A stretch of 54,501 nucleotides of DNA, from positions 1-54,501 of the forward strand of contig DASYVT010000205.1 in NCBI GenBank assembly GCA_035936835.1. The letters are read 5' to 3'. Below are positions 34,317 to 42,087 of this stretch, in pieces (position 1 is the stretch's first letter; each line of letters opens with the position of its first letter). Below the pieces are notes generated by a model. The model was given only the letters and a program-made list of their open reading frames with translations. It was not told where the DNA came from and made no database searches. The DNA comes from Candidatus Methylomirabilota bacterium. GTDB taxonomy: Bacteria > Methylomirabilota > Methylomirabilia > Rokubacteriales > CSP1-6. The position numbers and the translations under genes are program-made.

Positions 34317-36701
34317 TCACCTCTTCTTGATCGCCTTCTGCAGCACCTGGACCAGCTGCTCGACCCCCTGCGTCTGCTTCCCCGTCATGTGCACGCGCAC
34401 CACCCGGCGTCCCGCGTCCCGCAGGGCCTGGAGGTCGCCCAGGGCCTGGGCGGCTTTGAGCGTCGAGAAGCCGTAGCCCGCGCCCGGGATGGCCATGTCC
34501 TCCTTGTCCTCGCCCGTGAGCTGAATGAACACGCCGTTGGGGCGTCCGCCCTTGTGCAGCTGCCCCGTCGAGTGCAGGTAGCGCGGGCCGAAGGCCACCG
34601 TGGTCGCGAGCTTGAGGTGATCACGCAGGAGCGTTCGGAGCTCCTGCAGTCGGCTCCACGTGTCCGCCGTGGGCGCCAAGTACGCCTGGATGGCGATGTA
34701 GTCGCCCGCCTCAGCCTGCCCCAGAAATTCCTGGAGCCCCTGCGACACTCCGGCCGGCTTCTTGCCTGAGTTCGTCATGAGCACGAGGCCGTTCTCCTCG
34801 GCGTCGGCCGGCCATTCCGGCAGCTTCTTGCTCTTCTTCCACGCCCCGAGCAGCGACGCCGTGTTCTCCTTGGCGCGCGTGACGTCGGGCTCGTCGAAGG
34901 GGTTGACGCCCATCGCGACGCCGGCGGCGGCCGTCGCCAGCTCCCAGCGGACGAACTCGGCCCCGACCTCCAGCGGCTCCCGGAGCGCGATGCGGATCAC
35001 GGGATGCCCCGCGTCCTCGAGCGCGTTGAGCGCGGCGTCGTGGCTAAGGTCGCCCTCGAGCGTGACGGCCACGAAGACGCGGTCCTCGCCGTAGACCGCG
35101 GGCGGGCCGAGCGGCTCGTCGTCCACGGGCACGAGGCCCTTGCCGTCCTTGCCGAGCGACTCCGCCAGGAGCTGCTCGATCCAGGGGCCGAGACCGCGGA
35201 GCTTGCGCGAGAGCACGAGCGTCACCTTGTCGCGGCCGGCCTTGGCCAGCCCCGCGAGCGCGGCGCCGAGCCGGACCGCGGCATTGTCGCGGGCGCCGAC
35301 CGCGTTCCCGCACGCCTCGACCATAGCGTGGGCGCGGTCGAGCAGCGCCTTGATGTCGATGCCGATCAGCGCCGCGGGCACGAGGCCGAAGAAGGACAGG
35401 GCCGAGTAGCGTCCGCCGATCGAGCCCGGGTTGAGGAAGGTGCGGCGGAAGCCCGACTCGGTTGCGAGCTTGTCGAGCGGCCCGCCGGGGTCGGTGATGG
35501 CGACGAAGTGGATACCCGCGCGCGGCACCGAGGAGGCCGCGAGCTGTCCGCGGAAGTACTGGTACAGGGACAGGGTCTCGGTCGTGGTGCCGGACTTCGT
35601 GGCGACGATGAAGAGTGTGCGCGTCAGGTTGAGCCGGTCGAGCGTGTGCTTGATCGCCGCGGGATCGGTCGAGTCGAGCATCAGGAGGTCTGGGTAGCCC
35701 ATCTTGGAGCCGAAGATGAGGTTGAAGACGTCGCCGCAGAGCGACGAGCCCCCCATGCCCAGCAGCACGACCTGCGTGAACTGAAGCCTCCGGATCTCGT
35801 CCGCGAAACCTTTGATCTCGTCCGCGTGGCCGCGCATGATGGTCGGCGAGGTCAGCCAGCCGAGACGGTTGCGGATCGCCGCGGTCTCGCCCTTCCACAG
35901 GGACGCGTCCTTGACCCAGAGACGGTCCATGAAGTCCTGGCTCTCGAGGGCGTCCATGGTCTCCTGAACGGCCGGCAGCTTGAAGGCCTCGTCTGCGGGG
36001 CGCGCCTGCGCCTTCGCCTGCGCGGCCACCGGCGTCTCCATCTCGATCGTGCCCGCCGTGACCGGCTCCCCGGGGGCATCGGCCGGTGCCTCCTGGAGCG
36101 CCCGGCCTATGGCCTCGACCGGCACCTCTTCCCAGGTGTCGCGCTTGTCGGGCGCCGCCGCGCGGGCAGCGGCCGGCTTGCCCTTGTCTGCGGCCGCCGG
36201 CGGGCGCTCCTGCTGCGACGGAGCCGGCTGGCGCGTCGTGCCTTTCTCCGTGGGCGCCAGGCCGCCCTCGAGGAGCGCGACCTTGGAGACCTTGCGCACA
36301 AAGCGCTCCTCGCCGGAGAAGGAGGCGGCAAGCCATGCCGACGCGATCTCGACCGCCCTCGCGACGTCCACCTCGCGGGCGCCCAGGCACAGGACGTTGG
36401 CGTCGTCCTCCTCGCGGGAGAGACGCGCCGCCGACGGGTCGTGACAGAGCGAGGCCCGGACGCCGCGGATCTTGTTTGCAGCGATGGAGGCGCCGGCGCC
36501 GCTGCCGCAGATCAGCACGCCCGCGTTCACGAAGCCGCGGAGCACGGCCTGCCCGACCGCGCGCGCGTAGTCCGGATGGTCCACCGGGTCCGTGGAGAAG
36601 GTGCCGAGGTCAAGGAGGTCGTGGCCGCTCGCTTCGAGCGCCGCCGCCACCTGCTCCTTCAGCGGAAAACCAGTGTCGTCACAGCCGATCGCGATTCGCA
36701 T
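34317..36701 (-). CDS. Fusion: ribose-5-phosphate isomerase B + glucose-6-phosphate isomerase
   Basis: 794 aa. Residues 1-145 are RpiB/LacAB-like: IAIGCDDTGFPLK, DHPDYA, catalytic-loop Cys65 in LICGSGAGASIAANK and H87 in CHDPSAARLS. About 146-240 is an Ala/Pro/Lys-rich linker. About 245-794 is a Pgi domain of the type found in transaldolase-Pgi fusions: LLGMGGSSLCGD, ATKSGTTTETLS, GGRYSALSFFG, and VNPFDEPDV. It should interconvert ribose-5-P/ribulose-5-P and glucose-6-P/fructose-6-P, joining the pentose phosphate and glycolytic branches in one polypeptide. ATG 36701 has GGAGAC upstream. A broken sugar kinase gene lies just upstream in the same direction. Confidence 0.92.
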   Translation of the reverse strand: MRIAIGCDDTGFPLKEQVAAALEASGHDLLDLGTFSTDPVDHPDYARAVGQAVLRGFVNAGVLICGSGAGASIAANKIRGVRASLCHDPSAARLSREEDDANVLCLGAREVDVARAVEIASAWLAASFSGEERFVRKVSKVALLEGGLAPTEKGTTRQPAPSQQERPPAAADKGKPAAARAAAPDKRDTWEEVPVEAIGRALQEAPADAPGEPVTAGTIEMETPVAAQAKAQARPADEAFKLPAVQETMDALESQDFMDRLWVKDASLWKGETAAIRNRLGWLTSPTIMRGHADEIKGFADEIRRLQFTQVVLLGMGGSSLCGDVFNLIFGSKMGYPDLLMLDSTDPAAIKHTLDRLNLTRTLFIVATKSGTTTETLSLYQYFRGQLAASSVPRAGIHFVAITDPGGPLDKLATESGFRRTFLNPGSIGGRYSALSFFGLVPAALIGIDIKALLDRAHAMVEACGNAVGARDNAAVRLGAALAGLAKAGRDKVTLVLSRKLRGLGPWIEQLLAESLGKDGKGLVPVDDEPLGPPAVYGEDRVFVAVTLEGDLSHDAALNALEDAGHPVIRIALREPLEVGAEFVRWELATAAAGVAMGVNPFDEPDVTRAKENTASLLGAWKKSKKLPEWPADAEENGLVLMTNSGKKPAGVSQGLQEFLGQAEAGDYIAIQAYLAPTADTWSRLQELRTLLRDHLKLATTVAFGPRYLHSTGQLHKGGRPNGVFIQLTGEDKEDMAIPGAGYGFSTLKAAQALGDLQALRDAGRRVVRVHMTGKQTQGVEQLVQVLQKAIKKR

Positions 36702-36726: not shown

Positions 36727-37682
36727 CTATTCTCTCAAGATACGCGGGGCCCCACAACGCTCTCGTACAGGCGACCCTGGCGAGCTCGCGCGGCGGCGTG
36801 GGTGTCGCGACGGCGGGGGTCGGGGCGCACCTGAGACCCCGACGGCTCGGGCGAGGGCGCTCGGGCGGCCGAGCGCACCCAGGGCCAGGAGCGCCGCGCC
36901 GCGGCTCGAAGCCTCTGTGCCCTCGCGCACCTCAAGGGGCACCCCCAGCGCGTCGGCCAGGACCTGTGCGAAGACGCGGGAGTGCCCGAACGCGCCGCCC
37001 GAGGCGATGACCGCGTGGTCCGGCGACGCCACCGGCGCGAGCCGGTCGTAGACCGCCGCGAGGCGATATGCGACGGCTTCGACCAGGGCGCGGAGGATCT
37101 GCGGCGCGGTTGTGGCGAGCGAGATGCCAGCCACCGCCGCCTGCGCGTCGCCGCGCCAGCCAGGGCTCCGCTCGCGCGCAGGCGGCCGGTGAGGCGCAGC
37201 AGCAGGTATTCGGCGAAGCCGCACCACGTGGCCGCGCGGGCGAAGACGTCGGGCTTGGCCTCGCGCAGCCAGGTGAGCTTGGCCGGGAAGAAGGTCGAGT
37301 GCAGCGGCGCGCCGGTGCGGGCGTGCACTGCCGGTCCGTCCAGGCGGGCCCGGAGCGCCTTGGCCGCCCCAGCGCTCCGCGTGTCCGTCCAAGTCATGAC
37401 GCCGGTGAGCGGGCGGCCCTCGGCGTTGAGCGCCAACAGGCTGTGGCAGAAGACCGAGGCGCCCACGGCCGCCGGTGGGCCGGCCGGGGAGGCAACGCAG
37501 CGGTCGATGGCCGAGGCCGTCGCGGCCACGAGCTCCTCCGGATCCAGATGGGAGCCCCCGTCGGGAGTGGCGGTGGGCTCGCAGCTGACTCGCGCGTCGG
37601 CGCCGGGCAGGGGCCGTCCCAGGGCATCGTAGCCGATGGCCCGGATCGAGCTCGTGCCGACATCCAGCGCGAGGATCCACAT
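36727..37682 (-). pseudogene. FGGY-family sugar kinase, disrupted by internal deletion and frameshift
   Basis: From ATG 37682 the first 170 codons are an intact FGGY N-terminus: LALDVGTSSIRAIGYD, FCHSLLALN, TWTDTRS, STFFPAKLTWLR, YLLLRLTGRL. Directly after, near 37165, the frame no longer makes sense, but another minus-strand frame contains the C-terminal kinase half: ERSPGWRGDAQAAVAGI, ALVEAVAYRLAAVYDRL, ASGGAFGHSRVFAQVLADAL and EGTEASSRGAALLALGAL, ending at 36727. In intact kinases about 200 residues separate these two parts, so roughly 600 bp is missing at the junction and the frame is lost. The substrate was probably gluconate or a pentulose. Confidence 0.8.
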
Positions 37683-37690
37683 GGGTGCGG

Positions 37691-37696
37691 TATATT
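37691..37696 (+). promoter_or_regulatory. Putative -10 of the 37760 gene / selenoprotein operon
   Basis: TATATT lies in the gap after the divergent kinase remnant. A start near 37703 would leave a leader of about 57 nt that includes the GAGAGGAG ribosome site of the gene at 37760. No matching -35 is evident. Confidence 0.3.
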
Positions 37697-37759
37697 CTCC
37701 TCGACGCCCCGGCTTCCGTGGGGCATGTTTTCGACCGGCCGGGCGACCGAGAGGAGCGT

Positions 37760-37972
37760 ATGGCTGAACCCGAGTGGGAGCTGCTCACGGTGCGCGGGCT
37801 CGGCATGACGGACGAGCGCGCGGCCGAATTCGTCGGAACGTTCGTCATCCACCGGGCCGGCAGCGCCGAGCCCGTCGAGCAGGTGCAGGTCCGCGTCAAG
37901 CGGAGCGTGCTCGAGGAGATGTCGGGCACCCTCAAGCGCTTGCTCGCCCGGTCCACGCGGTACACCCGCTAG
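37760..37972 (+). CDS. Small conserved-looking protein, 70 aa
   Basis: 70 aa from ATG 37760, preceded by GAGAGGAG 5 nt upstream; an in-frame GTG at 37685 lacks such a site. The sequence is one compact mixed alpha/beta unit (WELLTVRGLGMTDERAAEF, then VQVRVKRSVLEEM) ending in a basic helix. I do not recognise it. It ends 19 bp before the selenoprotein gene and is likely cotranscribed with it. Confidence 0.6.
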   Translation: MAEPEWELLTVRGLGMTDERAAEFVGTFVIHRAGSAEPVEQVQVRVKRSVLEEMSGTLKRLLARSTRYTR

Positions 37973-37991
37973 CCTTGAACAAGGAGCCCCG

Positions 37992-38522
37992 ATGGCCACG
38001 ATCACCGTCTTGACTCCGGTCGGCGAGCAGCGCCAGGCGACCCTGGCTGTGCCGCCGCTGCCGGCCGACCTTCGCGGCCTCACCGTGGGGTTCGTGGACA
38101 ACACGAAGCACAACTTCGACCTGCTGGTGCAGGAGATGGGCGCGCTCCTCAAGGAGCGTTTCGGCGTCAAGGCGGTGGTGCACCGGAGGAAGGCCAACGC
38201 CTCGACCGCCGCCTCCGACGAGATCATCGAGGGACTCGCGAAGGACTGCGACCTCGTCTTCGCCGGCTCAGGCGACTGAGGCTCCTGCACGTCGTGGAGT
38301 CTCCACGACTCGCTGGAGGTGGCCAAGCGCGGGACGCCGTCCGGGCTGATCGGGACCACCGTGTTCCAAAACCTCGCCGTGAGCGAGATGGCGGCGCTCG
38401 GAGCCACGGGGCTGCCGCTCATCGTGATCCAGCACCCGCTGGGCGGTGAGAAGCCCGAGGCCGTGAGTAGGCGCGCGCTGCAGGCGGTGGAGCAGCTGGC
38501 GAGCCTGCTCGGCCGCGCGTGA
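37992..38522 (+). CDS. UGSC-motif selenoprotein with in-frame UGA (Sec96)
   Basis: 176 aa if TGA 38277-38279 is read as selenocysteine. Before it the frame encodes VGFVDNTKHNFDLLVQEM and DLVFAGSGD; after it the same frame continues Gly-Ser-Cys, then SWSLHDSLEVAKRGTPSG and VIQHPLGGEKPEAVSRRAL to a TAG. The resulting U-G-S-C motif (96-99) is the hallmark of the UGSC selenoprotein family, presumed redox proteins of unknown reaction. A perfect hairpin follows the UGA (see 38291-38309). A plain stop would leave a 95-residue protein and an orphan 81-codon tail without a ribosome site. AAGGAGCC precedes the ATG. Confidence 0.88.
38291..38309 (+). promoter_or_regulatory. SECIS-like stem-loop for selenocysteine insertion
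   Basis: An 8-bp perfect stem, GTCGTGGA (38291-38298) with TCCACGAC (38302-38309), closes a GUC loop. It begins 11 nt after the UGA and has G as the first loop base, matching the position and loop preference of bacterial SECIS elements inside the coding sequence. SelB binding is inferred. Confidence 0.7.
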
Positions 38523-38569
38523 GCGGTACACTGTCCCGGTAGGCCGTCATCTCACGCCAGGAGGACACC

Positions 38570-39631
38570 TTGCCCGACGCCAGTTCCGCTTTCCGTGAGC
38601 TCCAGTTGCCCGAGGAGGATGTCTACGCGGAATTCGTCAAGCGCGACTGGTGCGACGGGCTGCCCATCGTGCCCCCCACGCCGGAGCGGGTGCGGGCGAT
38701 GGTCGCGGCCGGCGGGGAGGATCCGGCTCGGGTGCTCGGCCTCATGCCGCCGCTCTGGCGCGAGGCAAGCGTCGAAAAGCTCGCCGTCAACGCCGTCATG
38801 GCCGGCTGCGAGCCCGCCTGCTTCCCGGTCGTTCTCGCGGCTGTCGCGGCCATACTCGAGCCCGCCTTCAACCTCTATGGCGTCCAGGCGACCACGCACC
38901 CTGTCGCCCCGCTCGTCATCGTCAGCGGCCCCGTCGCGCTTGCCGTCGGCATGCACGCGGGCGCCGGCCTCTTCGGTCCTGGCTTCCGCGCCAACGCGAC
39001 CATCGGCCGCGCTATCCGGCTCATCCTGATGAACGTGGGCGGAGGCTGGCCCGGGCGCCACGACATGGCGACCCAGGGCAGTCCGGCCAAGTTCTCCTAC
39101 GCCATCGCCGAGCGGGAGGACGTCTCGCCGTGGCCTCCGCTCCACGCGCGGTTCGGGTTCGCGGCCGAGCAAAGCGTGGTGACGGTCTTCGGCGGCGAGG
39201 CACCCCACAACGTCAACGACCACGTCTCGACCGCGGCGGCGGGCATCCTCAACAACGTCTCGGACGTCGCGGCCACGCTCGGCTCCAATGTCGGCTGGTA
39301 CATGGCCCAGAGCCAGCTCCTCGTGGTGCTGGGGCCCGAGCACGCGGCAACCGTTGCCGCCGACGGGTTCTCGTGTTCGGATGTCCAGCGCTTCGTCTTC
39401 GAGCACGCCCGCATCCCACTAGGCAGGCTCAAGCTCGGCGGCATGTGGGGCATGCACGACTGGCCGCTCTGGATGCAGAAGGTCACCGACGAGCAGGCGC
39501 TCCTGCCCATGGTGCCGACCCCAGAGGACGTCTACGTCATGGTCGCCGGCGGCCCGGGCAAGCACTCGTGCGTCGTGCCCAACTGCACCTTCAGCCGCGC
39601 GGTGAGCAAGGCCGTCGAGCTGCGGCCTTAG
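38570..39631 (+). CDS. Conserved protein of unknown function, companion of the UGSC selenoprotein
   Basis: 353 aa from TTG 38570 with AGGAGG 5 nt upstream. Notable conserved-looking segments are DWCDGLPIVPPTPERVRAM, AGCEPACFPVVLAAV, GNxGWYMAQ-like and WGMHDWPLWMQKV, plus a late KHSCVVPNCTF. Glycine- and histidine-rich loops suggest a binding or catalytic site. I do not know the fold, and no signal peptide is visible. Two Cys pairs could be redox partners for the upstream Sec protein, which is conjecture. Confidence 0.75.
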   Translation: MPDASSAFRELQLPEEDVYAEFVKRDWCDGLPIVPPTPERVRAMVAAGGEDPARVLGLMPPLWREASVEKLAVNAVMAGCEPACFPVVLAAVAAILEPAFNLYGVQATTHPVAPLVIVSGPVALAVGMHAGAGLFGPGFRANATIGRAIRLILMNVGGGWPGRHDMATQGSPAKFSYAIAEREDVSPWPPLHARFGFAAEQSVVTVFGGEAPHNVNDHVSTAAAGILNNVSDVAATLGSNVGWYMAQSQLLVVLGPEHAATVAADGFSCSDVQRFVFEHARIPLGRLKLGGMWGMHDWPLWMQKVTDEQALLPMVPTPEDVYVMVAGGPGKHSCVVPNCTFSRAVSKAVELRP

Positions 39632-39648
39632 GGGACGAGGGGACTCCG

Positions 39649-42087
39649 CTGCGCGAGAAGCGGCTCTGGTGGGCGGTGCTGGCGCTGGCCCTCTGGGTCG
39701 GCGCCTGGGCGACGCTCGACGCTTGGCGCTGCGTCGATCAGCCCTACGCGGGTTTCTCGGTGATGGACAACCTCCTGGTGGGGCTCGGGGTCGAGCGCGG
39801 CGGGCTCGAGCCGTTCGACTTCGTGCGCGCCATGGACGGCCGCCTCCTCGCCTCCGGCAGCCAGATCCACGACGAGGTCCGCCGCCACCCGCCGGGCACG
39901 AAGTTCCACTACCTCGTCAACCGTCGCGGTAGCCTGGTCGAGGCGGACATCACGAGCAAGGTCGAGCCCGTCCGCGACTTCGTGCGGTTCGTGCTCGAGG
40001 GGCTGCTGCCGGGGCTGCTCTTCCTGGGGCTGGGCGCCGCCGTCCTCGTCCTCAAGCCCGGCGCCCCGGACGCGCGGGTCTTCCTGCTCTTCTGTCTCAT
40101 CTGGTTCGTGACGGCCGTCCTCTACCGCGACGCCGTCAGCACGTACCGCTTCGACGCCATCTTCCTCACCGCCTGGGCGTTCTCGCCCGCGCTCTACCTG
40201 CACCTGGCGCAGAGCTTTCCCGAGCGGCGCCCGTGGTCACTGCGCCACCCGCGCGTCATCTGGTTCGCCTACGGCGTCTCGGCGCTCCTGGCCGTTCTCC
40301 TCCAGATCCGCCACGCCGGCGTCCCGCCGAGCGAGTTCGTGCTGATCCCGACCGCGGCCGCAGTGTACTGGGTCTCGTCCCTCGTCCTCCTGATCGCGGC
40401 GCTCGCGACGACGGCGCTGCGTGGCTCGACCCCGCTTGGCCGCCAGCGCGCCCGGGTGTTGCTCGCGGGGTTCGCCGTGGGCCAGCTCGCTCCCGTGATG
40501 GGCACGGCCCTCGAGGCCGTGACGGGCATGGCGGTGCCGCACCTCAACCTGCTCTGGAAGCTCAACGTCCTCTTCCCGGTGGCCGTGGCATACGCCATGG
40601 TGCGCTACGACCTCTTCGACGTGCGAGCCGTCGTCCGCCTCGGCACCATCTACGGGCTCGTCACCGGTGTCGTGATCGCGGCCTACGCCTTGGCCATCAC
40701 GCTGCTCAACGTGGTCTTCACCCGGCTCGGGATGGGCGCGAGCCCGCTCGCCACGGCCGTGGTGCTGGCGCTCGCCGTCGTGCTGTTCCTCAACCCCGTC
40801 TACGTCCGCGCCCAGCGTGTGGTGGACCGGGTCTTCTTCCGCCAGCGCCTCGACGTCCAGCGCTCCATCGAGCGGCTCGCCGGCACCATGACGACGGTCC
40901 TCGACCTCGACCGCATCGCGGGCCTCATCAGCCGGACGGTGGACGAGGCCTTCCATCCGACGCGGCTGACGCTCGCGCTGCTCGACGAGGGGCAGGGGCG
41001 CTACCGTGTCGTCGTCGGCAGCGCCGGGCCCATGGGCGCGGGCGGTCTCATCGCCGCCGAGTCGTCGCTGGCTCTGCACCTGGGCAAGGAGCGCCAACCG
41101 CTCACACGGGTTCAGCACGAAGCCGACCCGGACATGGCCTCTTGCCGGAACACCTGCCTCGCTCAGATGCGTGCCCTCGGCGCCGAGCTGGTAATGCCGG
41201 TGCTCTTCGGCGATCGCGTCACTGGTCTTCTCGCCCTCGGCGAGAAACGCTCGGGCGCCTCCTATACGACGGACGACCTGCGCCTGCTGCGCGTCCTCGT
41301 CAACCAGAGCGCCGTCGCGCTCGAGAACGCCCGGGCTTACACGGCGCTCGAGGCCGCCAACCGGCGGCTCGCCGACACACTCCGCCGCGTCGAAATCCTC
41401 GAGTCCATCCGGGCGAGTCTGTCCAAGTTCGTGCCGCGCCGGGTCCAGGAGTTGATCGAGCAGGCGCCGGAGGCGCCGGAGCTCGCCAAGCGCGAGATGG
41501 ACGTGTCGGTCCTGTTCGTGGACATCGCCGGCTACACGCGGCTGTCGGAGCGCCACGACCCCGATCGCCTCAACTTCGTCGTCGAGCGCTACTTCGGCGC
41601 CTTCCTCGACGAGGTCCTGCGCAACGGCGGCGACGTGAACGAGACCGCGGGTGACGGGCTCATGGTGATCTTCCAGGACGAAGACCCGGAGCGCCACGCG
41701 CGCAACGCCGCCCATGCGGCGCTCGGTATCTTGCGCCGGACGGACGAGATCAACGGCGAGGCGGGCGCCGTCGACGAGCCGATCCGCCTCCACGTGGGCG
41801 TGAACTCCGGCGCGGCCGCCGTGGGCGCCACCAAGATCGAGGGCACAGCCGGCACCCGCTGGACCTACACGGCCTCGGGCGCCGTGACCAACGTCGCCGC
41901 CCGGCTTGCGGCGCTCGGGGCGGGCGACTCCGTTTTCATCGGGCCGGAGACCGCCCGGCGGCTCTCCGGCTGGCTCGACCTCGAGGACCTGGGCGAGCGG
42001 TTGCTCAAGAACGTCGAAGAGCCGGTGCGCGTCTTCCGTCTCTCGGCGGGGCTGCCGACTTTGGCGGTCTCAGCTGGGGCGGTCTGA
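39649..42087 (+). CDS. Membrane-bound GAF / class III nucleotide cyclase
   Basis: About 812 aa. No ATG/GTG/TTG is well placed. I chose CTG 39649, with GAGGGGA 5 nt upstream, because it keeps the full first membrane helix; GTG 39676 is the alternative. Layout: helix 1, a PDZ-like extracytoplasmic segment (GLEPFDFVRAMDGRLLASG), about seven further helices to residue 390, a GAF domain (about 410-560), a short coiled coil, and the cyclase domain with D625 (FVDIAGYT) and D669 (AGDGLMVIF), the same 44-residue spacing as in the zinc-ribbon cyclases. The nucleotide-specificity loop reads TYTASGAVTNVAARL rather than the usual Gly-Asp form. The last 18 bp overlap the convergent EamA gene. Confidence 0.87.
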   Translation: MREKRLWWAVLALALWVGAWATLDAWRCVDQPYAGFSVMDNLLVGLGVERGGLEPFDFVRAMDGRLLASGSQIHDEVRRHPPGTKFHYLVNRRGSLVEADITSKVEPVRDFVRFVLEGLLPGLLFLGLGAAVLVLKPGAPDARVFLLFCLIWFVTAVLYRDAVSTYRFDAIFLTAWAFSPALYLHLAQSFPERRPWSLRHPRVIWFAYGVSALLAVLLQIRHAGVPPSEFVLIPTAAAVYWVSSLVLLIAALATTALRGSTPLGRQRARVLLAGFAVGQLAPVMGTALEAVTGMAVPHLNLLWKLNVLFPVAVAYAMVRYDLFDVRAVVRLGTIYGLVTGVVIAAYALAITLLNVVFTRLGMGASPLATAVVLALAVVLFLNPVYVRAQRVVDRVFFRQRLDVQRSIERLAGTMTTVLDLDRIAGLISRTVDEAFHPTRLTLALLDEGQGRYRVVVGSAGPMGAGGLIAAESSLALHLGKERQPLTRVQHEADPDMASCRNTCLAQMRALGAELVMPVLFGDRVTGLLALGEKRSGASYTTDDLRLLRVLVNQSAVALENARAYTALEAANRRLADTLRRVEILESIRASLSKFVPRRVQELIEQAPEAPELAKREMDVSVLFVDIAGYTRLSERHDPDRLNFVVERYFGAFLDEVLRNGGDVNETAGDGLMVIFQDEDPERHARNAAHAALGILRRTDEINGEAGAVDEPIRLHVGVNSGAAAVGATKIEGTAGTRWTYTASGAVTNVAARLAALGAGDSVFIGPETARRLSGWLDLEDLGERLLKNVEEPVRVFRLSAGLPTLAVSAGAV

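Follow-up and report, generated by a model that had tools for sequence, protein, structure and literature searches.

The window analysed here, a 54,501-nucleotide stretch of DNA (contig DASYVT010000205.1 of assembly GCA_035936835.1) from a soil bacterium, a Candidatus Methylomirabilota member of the Rokubacteriales, carries a gene of the UGSC selenoprotein family followed by a gene for a conserved partner protein. The frame that starts at ATG 37992 is open except for a TGA triplet at 38277-38279, and an initial annotation, made from the sequence alone, had read it through this triplet into Gly-Ser-Cys, with a hairpin placed where a bacterial selenocysteine insertion sequence (SECIS) would lie. 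Its coordinates were all correct, and the reading through the TGA was borne out by the comparisons described below. The features of the locus, all on the + strand, are the following:

37760..37972, +: open reading frame (ORF) of 70 amino acids (aa) just upstream of the UGSC gene, found at the same place in 12/12 orthologous Rokubacteria loci (62-100% identity)
37981..37986, +: Shine-Dalgarno-like AAGGAG ahead of ATG 37992, seen in the sequence
37992..38522, +: UGSC selenoprotein gene, 176 aa, predicted selenocysteine (Sec) at residue 96, stop TGA 38520-38522 (PF24696, E=7.1e-47)
38277..38279, +: in-frame TGA, predicted Sec codon of residue 96 (Cys codon TGC/TGT or TGA in all 59 aligned homologous loci)
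38291..38309, +: putative bacterial SECIS, 8-bp stem with GUC loop (loop GUN in all 17 Sec forms but in none of the 42 Cys forms; pair counts; the same kind of hairpin in selD and GRDB genes)
38570..39631, +: partner gene, 353 aa, TTG start, AGGAGG at 38559-38564 (adjacent or fused in 59/60 UGSC loci)

The UGSC gene and its selenocysteine codon

The product matches PF24696 (UGSC) over nearly the whole profile (positions 1-171 of 172) with 160 bits for a cut-off of 25, and it scores 122 bits against NF041046, 'UGSC family (seleno)protein', which is 3 bits under the curated cut-off of 125. The translation around the Sec codon is FAGSGD-U-GSCTSWSLHDSLEVA, so that residues D95-U96-G97-S98-C99 lie within DUGSCTSW and the [U/C]-G-S-C motif of the family is present. 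The columns U/C96, G97, C99 and F125 are invariant in an alignment of 48 sequences. Comparison with loci of named genomes assigns the window to Candidatus Rokubacteria, the nearest orthologue being 88% identical. Membership of the gene in the UGSC family, as the initial annotation had proposed, is thus virtually certain. When compared with the family as described by PF24696, by NF041046 and in the selenoproteomes of the Global Ocean Sampling and of symbionts (PMC2398784, PMC13188914), the gene shares the full-length profile match, the motif and the existence of Sec and Cys forms, and apart from the 3 missing bits nothing essential differs. The gene joins an already known family; what is new beyond the initial annotation is the partner gene, the relationship to GrdB/PrdB and the presence of seven paralogues.

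The genome (4.1 Mb, 99.94% complete) encodes a complete selenocysteine machinery, as selA, selB, selC and selD were all recovered: the genes for tRNA-Sec (71.3 bits, anticodon TCA), selB and selA lie side by side on contig C235, and selD, which itself has an in-frame TGA and its own hairpin, is found on contig C183. Each of the seven UGSC genes of this genome has exactly one internal TGA, and so has every match listed from 95 genomes of the phylum, among which the copy number reaches 12 per genome. At residue 96 the homologues carry Cys or Sec and in no case a stop: the codon is TGA in 11/11 Rokubacteria orthologues from independent assemblies, and TGC or TGT in all 42 other loci (haloarchaea, Sphingomonadales, Actinomycetota, Myxococcota and others). 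In the tree the two forms are interleaved, with 7 changes, at least 2 of which are forced by supported branches; the deep branches are weak and long. Because TGA occurs in all seven copies, in the 11 independently assembled orthologues and in the listed matches of the phylum, an assembly error converting TGC into TGA is in practice excluded. Calling with table 11 does split the gene into ORFs of 95 and 67 aa, as had been predicted for an automatic caller, and a degraded kinase gene lies directly upstream; however, conservation carries on over the full length beyond the TGA, the SECIS is conserved with covariation and the Sec machinery is complete, and a true stop or misassembled Cys codon in a truncated gene or pseudogene is therefore an explanation of negligible probability. 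These comparisons leave little room for doubt that residue 96 is Sec. One divergent paralogue (L007, contig C70), in which His-Sec-Ser-Thr-Cys replaces Asp-Sec-Gly-Ser-Cys and the hairpin is less clear, is located directly downstream of the apparent end of a TauD/TfdA-like dioxygenase gene.

The hairpin consists of the arms GUCGUGGA (38291-38298) and UCCACGAC (38302-38309) enclosing the loop GUC (38299-38301), the stem starting 11 nt and the loop 19 nt from the TGA. The published model of bacterial SECIS elements (PMC13188914 Fig. 2) allows a loop of 3-9 nt, a stem of 4-16 bp, a G within the first two loop positions and a distance of 16-37 nt from the UGA, and the hairpin of the window, with its 3-nt loop, 8 bp and 19 nt, falls within all of these bounds. 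The folding energy by itself is unremarkable for a GC-rich sequence (z = -1.15; 25/200 shuffles fold as well or better). Stems of at least 8 bp occur at a SECIS-like distance after 9 of the 1139 TGA triplets of the window and are thus rare, not unique. Folding energy was rejected as evidence and conservation was used instead. In the Sec forms (n=17) the loop is GUN in all and the full 8 pairs form in 16, whereas at the same position none of the Cys forms (n=42) has a GUN loop, and they average 5.6 pairs, despite conservation of the protein there. Overall, 97.5% of cells are paired in the stem, and slid controls reach at most 54%. Two stem pairs have changes on both sides: in paralogues L001 and L006, U-A is replaced by G-U and G-C by C-G, and because both sides of these pairs change, Trp becomes Gly and His becomes Leu in the encoded proteins. 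The serine codon at the loop is AGT in every Sec form. Judged from these alignments, hairpin conservation is decisive for the assignment as a SECIS, folding energy being weak evidence.

The partner gene and the two-protein module

A relative of the partner gene lies within ~1 kb of the UGSC gene, adjacent or fused to it, in 59/60 loci, with a larger spacing in the nearest orthologous locus (L030); in the lone exception (L040) the contig ends inside the UGSC gene. In-frame fusions of the two were found in the same genome (L003), in Variovorax (a Cys form) and on an IncP plasmid of Acidovorax sp. T1 (a Sec form). Open frames of ~500-600 aa are present at many UGSC matches of the phylum, taken together and not inspected singly, which suggests further fusions. 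These data make it very probable that UGSC and its partner constitute a functional module. The partner matched no Pfam or NCBIfam family, and its strictly conserved residues are D29, P36, T37, N74, R147, E181 and W188. According to the 2008 selenoproteome paper (PMC2398784), UGSC can be fused to a conserved domain termed 'Unknown_1' (Zhang & Gladyshev), which is probably the partner.

Ten partner genes were counted in the genome for seven UGSC genes. For three of them (L088, L090 and L091, on contigs C148, C206 and C180), the surrounding DNA examined contains no UGSC motif, one of the three being near a contig end. In the nearest orthologue (L030:2492-5233) a 914-aa spermidine-synthase-like protein with tetratricopeptide repeats is encoded between UGSC and partner. 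The 70-aa ORF upstream, which matches no Pfam family, is probably part of the UGSC transcript.

Probable relationship to the Sec domain of GrdB and PrdB

The GRDB genes of the phylum, when read through their TGA, encode V-[ST]-T-U-G-[TS]-C-x-R-C-G...ELER.GIPT...HP.G, and most of them have, past the Sec codon, a hairpin of the same type as that of the window (6-9 bp stem, G-first triloop 18 nt past the UGA). The UGSC profile was compared by hhalign with the Sec domains of these proteins, which aligned over 131 columns with a probability of 94.9 and E=4.4e-8 (such E-values hold for a single comparison), Sec falling on Sec and Cys on Cys. With full-length GRDB the probability was 93.6 and only the C-terminal Sec domain was aligned; with a PrdB-like set including two genes of the same genome it was 43. 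The score of 55.3 exceeds those of 200 column-permuted decoys (at most 19.3) and of 200 decoys in which the motif block was kept (at most 35.7), masking of the motif left a score of 29.5 with the register unchanged, and unrelated control profiles gave 0.3-2.8% against UGSC.

The part shared with GrdB/PrdB (PF07355; glycine, sarcosine, betaine and D-proline reductases) comprises a strand, U-G-[ST]-C-[TNH], a helix, G-[IVT]-P-[TS], a strand and (H)P.G. Likenesses extend to a partner subunit encoded next door, to trx genes in some operons, and to UxxCxxC or CxxCxxC, present even in paralogue L002 and the Arthrobacter form of UGSC. The differences are that PF07355 has no direct match in the UGSC protein of the window at E<=1, although little match to the shared part can be expected of a Pfam model that ends just before the Sec, and that the UGSC partner is unrelated to GrdE/PrdA (PF09338), a family with no member in this genome. 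From the profile alignments, we consider with good confidence that the UGSC domain and the Sec domain of GrdB/PrdB are distantly homologous. Two other roles considered for the partner, GrdE/PrdA (hhalign probability 0.05% against the GrdE profile) and the N-terminal half of GrdB, were tested and rejected. FarB/FarE, for which C-F cleavage of fluoroacetate has been proposed (PMC10838667), set a precedent for GrdB-like selenoproteins with substrates other than amino acids; FarB and FarE, however, are of the classical GrdB/GrdE types in anaerobes, whereas UGSC is shorter and has another partner.

Glycine-reductase-like selenoproteins are abundant in these bacteria. The same genome encodes two PrdB-like selenoproteins with U-P-[IV]-C-H-Q (L100 and L101, on contigs C148 and C129), and in related genomes many GRDB selenoproteins adjoin GrdE.

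Gene neighbourhood and proposed function

In Arthrobacter sp. ERGS1:01 a gene for phosphosulfolactate synthase is followed by trxB, trxA, partner and UGSC, the latter four occupying L148:5639-8813, with trxB and trxA confirmed by Pfam. Five other loci of the genome set (L060, L061, L062, L064 and L070) encode TrxB and/or TrxA relatives. Clostridial glycine reductase operons likewise have dedicated trxA/trxB genes (PMC10880999), and the reaction of glycine and D-proline reductases involves an attack of the selenolate on carbon, after which the selenium is left in a selenenyl sulfide or equivalent (PMC10298544). Elsewhere the neighbours encode acyl-CoA dehydrogenases, CoA transferases and ligases, ATP-binding cassette (ABC), tripartite ATP-independent periplasmic (TRAP) and tripartite transporters, amidohydrolases, DUF6282 proteins, and GntR and IclR regulators; tallies of these families give a mixed catabolic picture with no single substrate indicated.

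The Sec insertion signals, the family, the module and the Sec-domain homology are shown by sequence comparison, and from them we infer, as the best-supported reading, a two-protein reductase that depends on thioredoxin and acts in the catabolism of small molecules. SelB would bind the hairpin at 38291-38309 and bring Sec-tRNA to the UGA at 38277. UGSC and the product of 38570-39631, the two halves of the conserved module and a single chain in some genomes, would then form a complex, the partner being the half to which a small organic substrate binds or by which it is activated. The Sec96 selenolate might attack the carbon beside the activating group, with cleavage of a carbon-heteroatom bond (C-N, C-S, C-O or C-halogen), Cys99 would displace the product to leave an Se-S bond, and thioredoxin would re-reduce this bond. 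The divergent paralogues of one genome may serve different substrates of organic-acid catabolism. We moderately favour this explanation as a whole, namely a genuine UGSC selenoprotein in a two-protein module, with a GrdB-related Sec domain and a working like that of glycine or D-proline reductase; for the reductive cleavage mechanism itself the chances appear about even.

Several points weigh against this explanation, besides the single-comparison nature of the E-values. UGSC, with 176 aa, is devoid of the large N-terminal domain of GrdB (total about 430 aa), and the third Cys of the GrdB motif is usually absent from it. As the partner differs from GrdE and no fold relative of it could be recognised, a pyruvoyl-type activation is unsupported. 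The trx genes are near only about six loci, and the existence of Cys forms in aerobes and haloarchaea implies that Sec is inessential to the chemistry. The activity of the module is itself a prediction.

The two proteins might instead form an enzyme in which the Sec/Cys pair has no role in reductive cleavage, serving as a metal or cofactor ligand, as a sulfur or selenium carrier or as part of a lyase, hydratase or isomerase. The strictly conserved residues of the partner and the many loci devoid of trx genes are compatible with such an enzyme. Foldseek searches of the PDB and viral models with the AlphaFold2 model of the partner (predicted local distance difference test, pLDDT, 89.9) returned nothing credible, and the weak best matches, fumarate hydratase subunits, would suit a hydratase but have a TM-score of only ~0.3. 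As Sec and the resolving Cys are invariant together and a trxB-trxA operon exists, we regard this alternative as unlikely, although the better of those considered.

A thioredoxin-fold thiol/selenol oxidoreductase (peroxidase or disulfide reductase), with the partner as substrate or regulator, is a still less probable alternative. This fold was thought likely in 2008 (PMC2398784) and is assumed in the selenoproteome literature; the UxxC spacing also resembles CxxC. However, AlphaFold2 predicts for UGSC (pLDDT 92.8) a (beta-alpha)5 sheet in which the helix that follows strand 3 begins with Sec, not the beta-alpha-beta-alpha-beta-beta-alpha order of thioredoxin. Foldseek searches of the PDB and viral models with this model gave generic Rossmann- or flavodoxin-like matches (TM-score at most 0.55), with no thioredoxin among the PDB matches listed, and PDB profile searches with the UGSC, partner and GRDB alignments gave nothing credible. 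The GrdB/PrdB homology and the catabolic gene context also tell against a thioredoxin fold.

Returning to the two-protein reductase, we tentatively propose that UGSC and its partner may represent a class of two-component, thioredoxin-dependent reductases not described before, combining a GrdB-type Sec/Cys domain with a new substrate subunit. Such enzymes possibly spread, in part with plasmids, among haloarchaea and aerobic soil bacteria, and in Rokubacteria may have given rise to as many as a dozen paralogues in one genome, each specific for its substrate. In the open-access papers searched, including PMC2398784, the function of UGSC is called unknown or a thioredoxin fold is assumed, and we found there no description of the module, of its near-obligatory partner, of a link to GrdB, of such a mechanism or of Rokubacteria genomes with multiple copies (up to 12). 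UGSC proteins are reported to rank with the most frequent selenoproteins in metagenomes from aquatic, above all nonmarine, habitats (PMC2398784). With the GrdB/PrdB link, the near-obligatory partner and the trxB-trxA-partner-UGSC operon, what was a 'redox protein of unknown function' can be approached through an enzyme hypothesis that is open to testing, and a Cys-form UGSC-partner pair is at hand for expression. Gene callers lose such proteins: the Sec-form fusion of the conjugative IncP plasmid p2-T1 of Acidovorax sp. T1 (L145:8640-9300), whose SECIS stem is identical to that of the window, is recorded as a short hypothetical protein truncated at the TGA.

Around the UGSC operon, a divergent FGGY carbohydrate kinase gene (36735-37697, - strand) is broken, its three pieces being spread over more than one frame and ~180 aa being lost; it is intact at the same place in other Rokubacteria (496 aa in L030). 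A single 794-aa ORF at 34317-36701 (- strand) combines RpiB (PF02502) with a glucose-6-phosphate isomerase domain (PF00342), and a protein with GAF and adenylate/guanylate cyclase domains is encoded immediately 3' of the partner gene (39631-42087, + strand).
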